From contig JAKTTT010000068.1 in the NCBI GenBank assembly GCA_030581615.1, forward strand, positions 54,049 to 118,048: a stretch of 64,000 bases of DNA. The letters run 5' to 3'. This document shows, in pieces, positions 2,616 to 8,005 of the stretch (position 1 is the first letter of the stretch; each line of letters begins with the position of its first letter). The DNA is from Alloascoidea africana (Eukaryota; Ascomycota; Alloascoideomycetes; Alloascoideales; Alloascoideaceae). Below the pieces are notes generated by a model. The model did not search any database. It was not told where the DNA came from and saw only the letters and a list, made by a program, of their open reading frames with translations. Both the position numbers and the translations under genes were made by a program.

Positions 2616-2756
2616 GTAAGTAACAAACATAACAATGATATGGAGCATTTGCTATGGAAGAATTGGAATACTCTCGATCTGTTTATGAGAACCAAGTCCG
2701 GTGCTTTTGTTTTGTATGGATGCAAAACATTGAAGTAGGTTACTAACAGATTTCAG
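2616..2756 (+). other. 5'UTR intron of RPS29
   Basis: Donor GTAAGT at 2616-2621, perfect branch site TACTAAC at 2741-2747 and acceptor CAG ending at 2756 define a 141-nt intron. It ends 12 nt before the RPS29 ATG. Exon 1 is non-coding, because an in-frame TAG lies at 2607-2609. Confidence 0.85.
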
Positions 2757-2768
2757 TATTCTGTAAAG

Positions 2769-2939
2769 ATGGCTCACGAAAACGTTTGGTACTCTCACCC
2801 ACGAAAATACGGCAAAGGATCGCGACAATGTCGTATCACTGCAACCACTACTGGTGTCATCAGAAAGTATGGAATCAACTTGGGAAGACAGTCCTTCCGT
2901 GAGAAGGCTGCTGATATCGGTTTCCACAAGTATCGATAA
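2769..2939 (+). CDS. RPS29: Small ribosomal subunit protein uS14 (Rps29), 56 aa
   Basis: The 56-residue product matches eukaryotic Rps29 end to end: MAHENVW start, [35 protein letters not shown] end. Rps29 sits in the head of the 40S subunit near the decoding site. In other yeasts four cysteines (21, 24, 39, 42) bind zinc. Here only Cys21 remains; the other three positions are Thr, Gly and Ser. Three arginines use CGA, a codon usually avoided in highly expressed yeast genes. A 5'UTR intron precedes the ATG (see separate entry). The reading frame upstream in exon 1 has a stop, so ATG 2769 is the start. Identification is firm; whether this is the only Rps29 copy in the genome cannot be seen. 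Confidence 0.95.
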
Positions 2940-3379: not shown

Positions 3380-4783
3380 TTAAGCGGTAGAGGCGCAAAG
3401 AGCAGCACCCACACCTGATCCATCTTTGGCTACCTTAATTCTAATCTTCTTCTCCCCATCCACTCCGATATACTTACAAAGCCTCATTGCTTCTCTCATC
3501 TTTTTTTGAAAGTCCGGATAGTATTGAACGACGCTGCCGTCGACTCCAATGTCTACTGCAGTAAGCCTTTCTAGAGCGCCAGTCTTGTGCAGAATTCCTG
3601 CAAGTGGGATCGCACTCAAGTAGGCTGATCGTTTTGAGATTGCTCTGACCAGAACTTGAATTGCCTGGCGTTCCTCAAAAGTGGTGGGGATGTGGATGGA
3701 CTGGTTGAAAACCAGCTCGGTAAGCCTCTGGGAAGTGGAGTCATCAATCTCAACAATTGAAAGAATAGAGGAATCCAGAGTCCATGGTTTAAAGAACTTT
3801 TCACCCATGTCCTTAACCGATTGGAAAATCAGCTTTTGTTCGTATAGGTCTACCAGAATCTGTCTCAGCGTTTCTCCCAGAAACATGCCACTGACTCTTT
3901 TCTCAAACATGTGGAAAGTAGGATTGGGGGTCAGTTTATCAATAGCCTCATCGTATTTTGTCACTGGTAGAACTGTGAGGTCATTGTCAAAGGAACCCCA
4001 CTCGGTGTTTATAACCATATGAGTAACTCCAGCAGGTATTTCACTCCTGTCCAGCTTGCCAATATTTTCAACTGGCTCCATGTAGCAGCCGTTGGTTCCG
4101 GTGCCAAAAATGCAACCAATAACAGTTTCGCTGCCATCTTCAGACTCGTTTGAGTAAGCGCCAGACATGAATGTGCCAACAGTATCGTTAACAAGCGCAA
4201 CAACCTCCGCGTTTAAGTTCTTCTCGTCTAGAGCCTGCTGGAGTAACTGGACAACGTCCTTGTCGACAGCATCAGCAATGCTAAATCCCTTGGTCCATCT
4301 GATCAATGTGCCCCGAGCCAAGGAAGTTTGGTGAACTGGGAAGCTAAAGGTGAAACCAATCTTTAAAGGCCCATGCTGGCCCCCTTCTGAGGCAAACCGA
4401 TCAGAGTGATGGACATCCAAAAAGCTGGCAACTTTATCAGCAAAAAAGTCAAAAAGGGGTTTTGATTCTCCAGATAATAAGTCCTTTGGAATTGGGTGTT
4501 TGATATGTTTCATTTGGAAAGCGTGGTTGCCATTCAACCGGACCGAACAGACTCGGAAATTCGTGCCGCCAAGGTCGAGGGCCAGGTATAGTCCTTTTTC
4601 TGTACCTGTTGGAGCACGAGTGACGAAAGATGGGATCATCAGTAGTCCTCTTTTGTTTGCTTCTGAATTGAGGCCTTCGTTGGCCAATTGGATGAAGCGG
4701 TCCACGCCCTTGTCTATTGTCTCGGGAGAGATTTCAAATAGTTGGGCGATTTCGTTGATTTTGTCAAACAGTGCTTTAGACAT
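3380..4783 (-). CDS. GLK1: Glucokinase/hexokinase family sugar kinase, 467 aa
   Basis: It phosphorylates glucose with ATP at the head of glycolysis, in the cytosol. Visible motifs in order: phosphate-1 loop LALDLGGTNFRV, sugar-binding TFSFPVHQ and RWTKGF, the catalytic Asp in VALVNDTVGT, the adenosine region IFGTGTNGCYME, and a C-terminal VDGSVVQYYP / DGSGVGAAL. Length and sequence resemble yeast glucokinase (Glk1/Emi2) more than Hxk1/2: the N-terminus lacks the basic KKGSM-like regulatory segment of Hxk2. I chose the second Met (MSKALFDK, ATG at 4783) because the seven codons before it read through the leader. A TATA-like CAATATAAA lies about 65 bp upstream. Divergent from TUB1 across 1.3 kb. 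Confidence 0.92.
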   Translation of the reverse strand: MSKALFDKINEIAQLFEISPETIDKGVDRFIQLANEGLNSEANKRGLLMIPSFVTRAPTGTEKGLYLALDLGGTNFRVCSVRLNGNHAFQMKHIKHPIPKDLLSGESKPLFDFFADKVASFLDVHHSDRFASEGGQHGPLKIGFTFSFPVHQTSLARGTLIRWTKGFSIADAVDKDVVQLLQQALDEKNLNAEVVALVNDTVGTFMSGAYSNESEDGSETVIGCIFGTGTNGCYMEPVENIGKLDRSEIPAGVTHMVINTEWGSFDNDLTVLPVTKYDEAIDKLTPNPTFHMFEKRVSGMFLGETLRQILVDLYEQKLIFQSVKDMGEKFFKPWTLDSSILSIVEIDDSTSQRLTELVFNQSIHIPTTFEERQAIQVLVRAISKRSAYLSAIPLAGILHKTGALERLTAVDIGVDGSVVQYYPDFQKKMREAMRLCKYIGVDGEKKIRIKVAKDGSGVGAALCASTA

Positions 4784-6073: not shown

Positions 6074-8005
6074 ATGAGAGAAGTTATCAGCATTAATGGT
6101 ACGTTACACAGCGTTCCGTTGTCTGTTATGGATGTGTCCACGACCCAGATCCCGATGTGGATCAGAGCTAAGCGATGAAAGCTGATGATGCGTTTCCATT
6201 TCATCTTCCGCTCGAGATTGCCAATTCAATTATGTACAAAGTGGATTCTTTTCACATCTTCGGAGTTGGTACTGGGTTGTCGGCTCATAGTCCATCGTTT
6301 ATCCAGTTTTCAGTGGGCCCTGCGTGCTGATATTTTGAACGGAATGCTAACATTTTCTTGTCTCTCTAGTCGGCCAAGGTACGTTACCACCCCATTCAAC
6401 AAATTAATAATGAAATAAAAAAAAAAATGGAAAAAAGGGGCCATAACGGTCCTTTTGCCAAAGGGCCTGCCACACACATGAGCAGTTTTGTAGCCCTCCC
6501 CGTCCAGTTTGTTCTAACCTGATGGGAATGTAGCTGGATGCCAGATTGGTAACTCGTGTTGGGAGGTATGTATAATCAATCAAAACAACTGCACTGGCCA
6601 CTTCTAACACAAATCCCCATAGTTGTATTGTCTTGAGCATGGTATTCAAGTAGGTATCGCGATGGAACTTTGGCACAAGAGAGCAATTACTAATGAGGCG
6701 ACAGCCTGATGGATACCTCCAAGAAGGTCTTACTAGACCCAAGGGAGAAGACGGGTTCAGCACTTTCTTTTCTGAAACTGGTATGTGCAGGTAGGCTTTT
6801 ACAAAATCGTGTTATGCTGACCTTTCCTGGAAATAGGATCTGGTAAATTTGTTCCAAGAACCATCTACGTTGATTTGGAACCCAATGTGGTCGATGAGGT
6901 CAGAAATGGTACCTACAAGGACCTTTTCCATCCAGAGCAACTGATCACAGGCAAGGAGGATGCCGCCAACAACTATGCCCGTGGCCATTACACCGTGGGC
7001 AAGGAGCTGATTGACCAGGTCATGGACCGTGTCAGAAAGGTTGCGGACAACTGCGGTGGTCTTCAGGGGTTCCTCTTCACCCACTCGTTCGGCGGTGGTA
7101 CCGGTTCCGGTTTTGGAGCTCTTCTGTTGGAGCAATTGTCTGTTGACTTTGGCAAAAAGTCCAAGTTGGAGTTTGCCGTGTACCCAGCACCTCAAGTTTC
7201 AACATCTGTTGTGGAGCCTTACAACTCTGTTTTGACCACACATACCACTCTAGAGCATTCGGACTGTACCTTTATGGTCGACAATGAGGCCATTTACAAT
7301 ATGTGCCGCCGTAATCTGGACATTGCCAGACCATCGCACGACAACCTGAACCGTATCATCTCCCAGGTGGTTTCCTCTGTGACGGCCTCGTTGAGATTCC
7401 CAGGATCGCTGAACGTGGACTTGAATGAGTTCCAGACAAACTTGGTTCCATATCCAAGAATCCACTTCCCGTTGGTTTCCTATGCACCGGTGATCTCTGC
7501 ATCCAAGGCACATCACGAATCGAACTCGATCCAGGAGATTACAAACGCCTGCTTCGAGCCCAGCAACCAGATGGTGAACTGCGAGCCCCGTAAGGGCAAG
7601 TACATGGCAACATGTTTGCTGTACCGTGGAGACGTTGTGAACCGTGAGGTGCAATCTGCCGTGGCCACGATCAAATCGAAGAAGACGATCCAGATGGTTG
7701 AGTGGTGTCCCACCGGTTTCAAGATTGGTATCTGCTACCAGCCCCCACAGTTTGTGCCAGGCGGAGATTTGGCCCAGGTCACCCGTGCTGTTTGCATGCT
7801 GTCCAACACGACGGCGATTGCGGACGCATGGACCAGGTTGGATCAGAAGTTTGATCTGATGTACGCCAAGCGGGCATTTGTCCACTGGTACGTTGGCGAG
7901 GGAATGGAAGAAGGCGAGTTCAGCGAGGCCAGAGAGGACTTGGCGGCTCTTGAGAAAGATTACGAAGAGGTCGCCGCGGATACCACGTACGAGGAGGAGT
8001 ATTAG
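6074..8005 (+). CDS. TUB1: Alpha-tubulin, six exons, 445 aa
   Basis: Alpha subunit of the tubulin dimer, building the spindle and cytoplasmic microtubules. Exons by my reading: 6074-6098, 6370-6378 (9 nt), 6534-6565, 6623-6649, 6705-6780 and 6837-8005. Joined, the start reads [20 protein letters not shown] then [14 protein letters not shown], the canonical tubulin N-terminus, and the total is 446 codons including stop. All five introns begin GT (GTACGT, GTACGT, GTATGT, GTAGGT, GTATGT), end AG, and have branch-like TGCTAAC, TTCTAAC, TTCTAAC, TACTAAT or TGCTGAC boxes 10-20 nt before the acceptor. The GTP loop GGGTGSG and the catalytic Glu in [11 protein letters not shown] are intact. The protein ends EEEY, so a C-terminal aromatic is kept. 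CTG codons fall on conserved Leu sites (RRNLDI, DNLNR). Confidence 0.96.

Follow-up and report, generated by a model that had tools for sequence, protein, structure and literature searches.

A cytosolic uS14 of Alloascoidea africana without the four-cysteine zinc site

The RPS29 locus of Alloascoidea africana encodes a cytosolic uS14 (Rps29) in which three of the four zinc-site cysteines are missing. This raises the question whether the locus represents an ordinary ribosomal-protein gene, a divergent paralogue or a defective copy, and whether such a protein stands alone among the yeasts. To answer it, the locus was analysed within a window of 64 kb (the whole stretch of DNA under study), in which no Rfam match at gathering scores was obtained and ARAGORN reported no tRNA.

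The RPS29 gene and its protein

The features of the gene are as follows:

2769..2939, + strand: RPS29 (uS14) coding sequence, C-minus form, 56 amino acids plus stop, assigned by its PF00253 match and the Rps29 alignment
2829..2831, + strand: codon TGT for Cys21, the sole zinc-site cysteine kept
2838..2840, + strand: codon ACT for Thr24, replacing Cys24
2883..2885, + strand: codon GGA for Gly39, replacing Cys39
2892..2894, + strand: codon TCC for Ser42, replacing Cys42
2616..2756, + strand: probable 5'-UTR intron of RPS29, placed by sequence motifs only (GTAAGT donor at 2616, TACTAAC branch point at 2741-2747)
2748-2749 or 2754-2756, + strand: candidate acceptors of this intron, by motif reading

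Translation of the open reading frame at 2769-2939 (+) gave Cys, Thr, Gly and Ser at positions 21, 24, 39 and 42, and the PF00253 profile matched residues 7-55 with 44.7 bits (curated cut-off 27). Both results confirmed what an earlier note on this DNA had described, namely an Rps29 that is intact end to end and carries Thr24, Gly39 and Ser42, with only Cys21 left. Alignment with seven other Rps29 proteins was gapless over all 56 residues, with identities of 54-79%. Among the 28 columns that are invariant in these seven proteins 26 are retained, Cys21 included; the two altered ones (L30V and L36I) are both mild exchanges at positions where Kluyveromyces lactis and the PDB chain 9axt have Leu. 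The pair of CxxC motifs that marks the zinc-binding C2-C2 form (at 21/24 and 39/42) is thus replaced by C/T/G/S, and the absence of the four-Cys site places the protein with the C-minus forms of uS14. Judged from its translation, A. africana Rps29 cannot form a C4 zinc site, and it is a real and probably zinc-free protein.

A sequencing error or a decayed pseudogene could in principle produce such a reading, and no point in favour of either was found. To reach the nearest Cys codon, ACT and GGA would each need two base changes and TCC one. The total of at least five changes, all in-frame, without an indel and located exactly at the zinc sites, makes a sequencing error implausible. The open frame, the near-complete set of invariant columns with two mild alterations and the lack of any other detected copy likewise speak against decay, and we give this explanation practically no chance.

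The earlier note had further read the CGA codons of the gene as a hint at modest expression. CGA accounts for three of the seven Arg codons in RPS29, for 9/60 in eight other ribosomal-protein genes (matched segments) and for 52/414 in 14 long open reading frames of the window (Pfam was used to check three of these as genes). The share in RPS29 is the highest of the three and is based on seven codons only (Fisher p=0.10 against the other ribosomal-protein genes), and the other ribosomal-protein genes do not differ from the window frames (Fisher p=0.54). Since ribosomal-protein genes show no avoidance of CGA, the codon is a poor sign of low expression, and this hint had to be abandoned.

Copy number and genomic neighbourhood

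The genome (23,180,953 bases, 23.2 Mb, in 138 contigs) was searched for a second uS14 with PF00253 at E<=0.001 and at E<=10, with the A. africana Rps29 protein and with the four-Cys chain of Saccharomyces cerevisiae, in a loose first pass in which scores were given to the best candidates only. A second cytosolic uS14 was not found at E<=10 in the 23.2-Mb assembly, neither with PF00253 nor with the two protein queries. The only two other PF00253 matches at E<=10 both lie on contig C17 and correspond to the two exons of the mitochondrial homologue, the second of which scores below the family cut-off:

1312-1730 of the locus on contig C17: MRP2 (uS14m), in two exons separated by an intron whose donor is GTAAGT

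MRP2 is likewise single-copy in the PF00253 search at E<=10. Its intron, which is flanked by protein homology on both sides, shares the GTAAGT donor with the probable 5'-UTR intron of RPS29 and has the branch point CTAAC. The suggestion that the locus holds a divergent paralogue thus found no support in this assembly, which may be incomplete: with no second cytosolic uS14 detected, RPS29 at 2769-2939 is an ordinary gene unless the assembly misses a copy. With the same reservation, a zinc-responsive C+/C- pair of the bacterial type is not present, as no four-Cys copy was detected at E<=10.

Other families behave differently from RPS29. Two loci each were found for eS26, eS27, eL37, eL42 and NUBM (all five families that were searched by accession). 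The DNA of the two loci is 77-83% identical across the matched part, and in two of these five pairs a flanking segment matched as well (70-74%). NUBM, a complex I subunit, scored highest against the PDB chain 6gcs, presumably from Yarrowia lipolytica (942 bits, with 873 for the second-best), so that a position among the budding yeasts on the Yarrowia side is probable. The sequence comparison suggests that the A. africana genome is largely doubled or hybrid, resulting from a whole-genome duplication or belonging to a hybrid yeast, in which case the single RPS29 could be due to loss of the other gene or to a gap in the assembly. If a second, four-Cys RPS29 were missing from the 138 contigs, the copy described here would be the divergent one, and the five families with two loci, against which a single RPS29 stands out, favour this idea. 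Two other genes of the window are as follows:

3380-4783, - strand: hexokinase gene (Pfam match), convergent with RPS29
7022-8005, + strand: tubulin gene, downstream part; its open reading frame begins within the GTPase domain, so that upstream exons are expected

A search with the hexokinase protein hit six places in the genome, the window gene itself among them. The best other copy lies on contig C39 (68% identity) and has different neighbours within ~20 kb; neither RPS29 nor any other shared gene was found in the ~20 kb around it, and hexokinase was the only match when the 30 kb around RPS29 were compared. When the ~20 kb around the C39 hexokinase were searched with Rps29 proteins, no E-value below 0.16 was obtained. 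This result, the empty searches at E<=10 and the fact that MRP2 is single too argue against a missing copy, which we consider very improbable. We are instead confident that RPS29 of A. africana is an ordinary gene that encodes the only detected cytosolic uS14, a protein from which the C4 zinc site has been lost.

C-minus uS14 in other yeasts

For a comparison with solved structures, residues were examined in 13 chains out of the 61 distinct uS14 chains that matched in the PDB. Three of the 13 are C-minus and come from two organisms. The chain 9axt, presumably from Schizosaccharomyces pombe, whose sequence it matches identically, has C/T/S/S at sites 21/24/39/42. The K. lactis chain has C/S/D/S and is the same in 3j80 and 3j81; PMC4217140 gives K. 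lactis as the source of the 40S in the complex deposited as 3J81. The four-Cys chains among those examined are 3j6x, 4u3m, 7pzy, 7olc, 7r81 and five more. Of these, 3j6x is presumably S. cerevisiae and 7pzy C. albicans, 7olc and 7r81 are presumably fungal too, and the five unnamed chains appear to be of vertebrate type; 4U3M is assigned to S. cerevisiae in PMC13090322.

Two other yeasts with C-minus Rps29 are thus already represented in the PDB, and A. africana adds a further example of a state that is not new; the absence of the same three cysteines in K. lactis and 9axt had been missed in the earlier note. Given the fact that these chains are C-minus, such a uS14 sits in solved ribosomes. 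The K. lactis protein resembles that of A. africana in its 56 amino acids (44/56 identical), in the retention of Cys21, in the loss of Cys24, Cys39 and Cys42 and in Ser42, but has Ser24 and Asp39 in place of Thr24 and Gly39. The 9axt chain (42/56 identical) shares Cys21, Thr24 and Ser42 and differs by Ser39 and by A-H between Cys21 and Thr24. S. cerevisiae Rps29 (3j6x, 4u3m), of equal length and with 41/56 identical residues, differs in being a C2-C2 form with all four zinc cysteines present.

Among the matches listed, no treatment of cysteine loss in yeast Rps29 was found in the open-licence literature. In PMC13090322 (2026, section 2.5), Rps29 is counted among nine proteins that maintain their zinc motif across diverse eukaryotes, with 'some variations' allowed, on the basis of six model organisms with S. 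cerevisiae as the sole fungus.

How often the site was lost was approached through the 52 residues that remain when the four sites are set aside. Here K. lactis shares 44 residues each with S. cerevisiae and 7pzy, 43 with 9axt and 42 with A. africana, while A. africana shares 42/52 with K. lactis and at most 40/52 with the four-Cys forms; a protein of 56 residues groups weakly, and few residues separate the comparisons. These identities, which are weak evidence, do not point to a common C-minus ancestry for K. lactis. With K. lactis grouped among the four-Cys species S. cerevisiae and C. albicans, and with S. pombe placed outside the budding yeasts, three separate losses are the simplest count. 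The most likely course is that yeasts lost the zinc site on several occasions.

A single old loss would be conceivable if the fungal ancestor had possessed two RPS29 genes, one four-Cys and one C-minus, of which each lineage kept one. Ser42 is common to the three C-minus forms, all of them have Thr or Ser at position 24, and A. africana is slightly nearer to K. lactis than to the four-Cys forms; in addition, bacterial S14 occurs as C+ and C- paralogues, as stated in PMC13090322. However, K. lactis stands at least as near to four-Cys S. cerevisiae as to the other C-minus forms, position 39 differs in all three (Gly, Asp and Ser), and Ser is one base from Cys, so that the common Ser can be due to chance. 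Sorting of old paralogues is therefore judged quite unlikely.

Zinc, fold and the relatives in bacteria and mitochondria

The loss had also been proposed to lower the zinc demand of ribosomes. In the zinc ribosomal-protein set used here (eS26, eS27, eL37 and eL42, with eS31, eL34, eL40 and eL43 outside it), two CxxC motifs were found in both copies of each of the four families (8/8 genes). At most one zinc is saved per ribosome among the families tested, and the proposal was overstated; since the other families keep both motifs, any saving is small. The same count bears on the idea that the loss was selected as a zinc-sparing adaptation to low-zinc life. One zinc less per ribosome would fit, as would the expression of the bacterial C-minus S14 paralogue under zinc limitation (PMC13090322). 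On the other hand, all eight other zinc ribosomal-protein genes retain their motifs, and no C+ copy was found with which the C-minus form could be switched, which leaves zinc sparing as an unlikely cause.

For the repeated loss that we prefer, the following explanation is proposed. In the 40S head uS14 would be wedged between 18S rRNA and neighbouring proteins, and its fold could survive without zinc; by analogy with zinc-free bacterial S14, rRNA and neighbours would most likely hold it. Thr24 and Ser42 may serve as small polar stand-ins for the cysteines, and Cys21 would stay because it packs or forms hydrogen bonds regardless of zinc. The site, being unneeded, may then have relaxed more than once in yeasts, mostly neutrally or under weak selection, and so have been lost. 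A single-sequence AlphaFold2 model of A. africana Rps29 was poor (mean pLDDT 68.5), and Foldseek with this model found no match in the PDB at E<=0.001, uS14 included; the model does not bear on the fold.

More tentatively, and in our view less likely than not, yeasts may have made uS14 zinc-free repeatedly and convergently, each time keeping Cys21 while small polar residues took the places of Cys24 and Cys42, such that a C-x-x-T/S remnant replaces the zinc knuckle in a metal-free manner and Cys21 has a conserved role of its own. If this is true, the 'conserved eukaryotic uS14 zinc motif' fails for several yeast lineages. The loss in A. africana Rps29 is in itself mildly interesting. It indicates that eukaryotic ribosomes can do without a zinc site that is often taken as conserved in them, and the three C-minus yeasts (for two of which ribosome structures exist) offer a natural test of the purpose of the zinc. 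A general redox or zinc-store switch of the Rps29 cysteines is impossible via the C4 site in these three yeasts.

The likeness to the C-minus S14 of bacteria, which had been pointed out in the earlier note, proved apt. The S14 chain of 11bq, presumably from E. coli, keeps the first Cys and has Thr at the second site (C-R-Q-T, compared with C-R-I-T in A. africana). In mitochondrial uS14 the first Cys is kept in all five distinct proteins examined, A. africana MRP2 included, and the second site is Thr or Ser in four of them; A. africana MRP2 reads C-V-D-T at the first zinc pair. The recurrence of the first Cys in three fungal C-minus forms, in E. coli and in mitochondrial uS14 suggests that Cys21 has a role independent of zinc. 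The mitochondrial proteins are an imperfect parallel, as a Cys is kept at the third site in MRP2 of both A. africana and S. cerevisiae and at the fourth site in 9evs. Bacterial S14 and uS14m thus resemble A. africana Rps29 in lacking a four-Cys site, in keeping the first Cys and in often having Thr or Ser at the second, but they are longer (101 amino acids in E. coli, 113-155 in the mitochondrial chains compared), have a different N-terminal half and show a site spacing that is two residues shorter. The bacterial and mitochondrial loss of cysteines is a separate event from that in A. africana.
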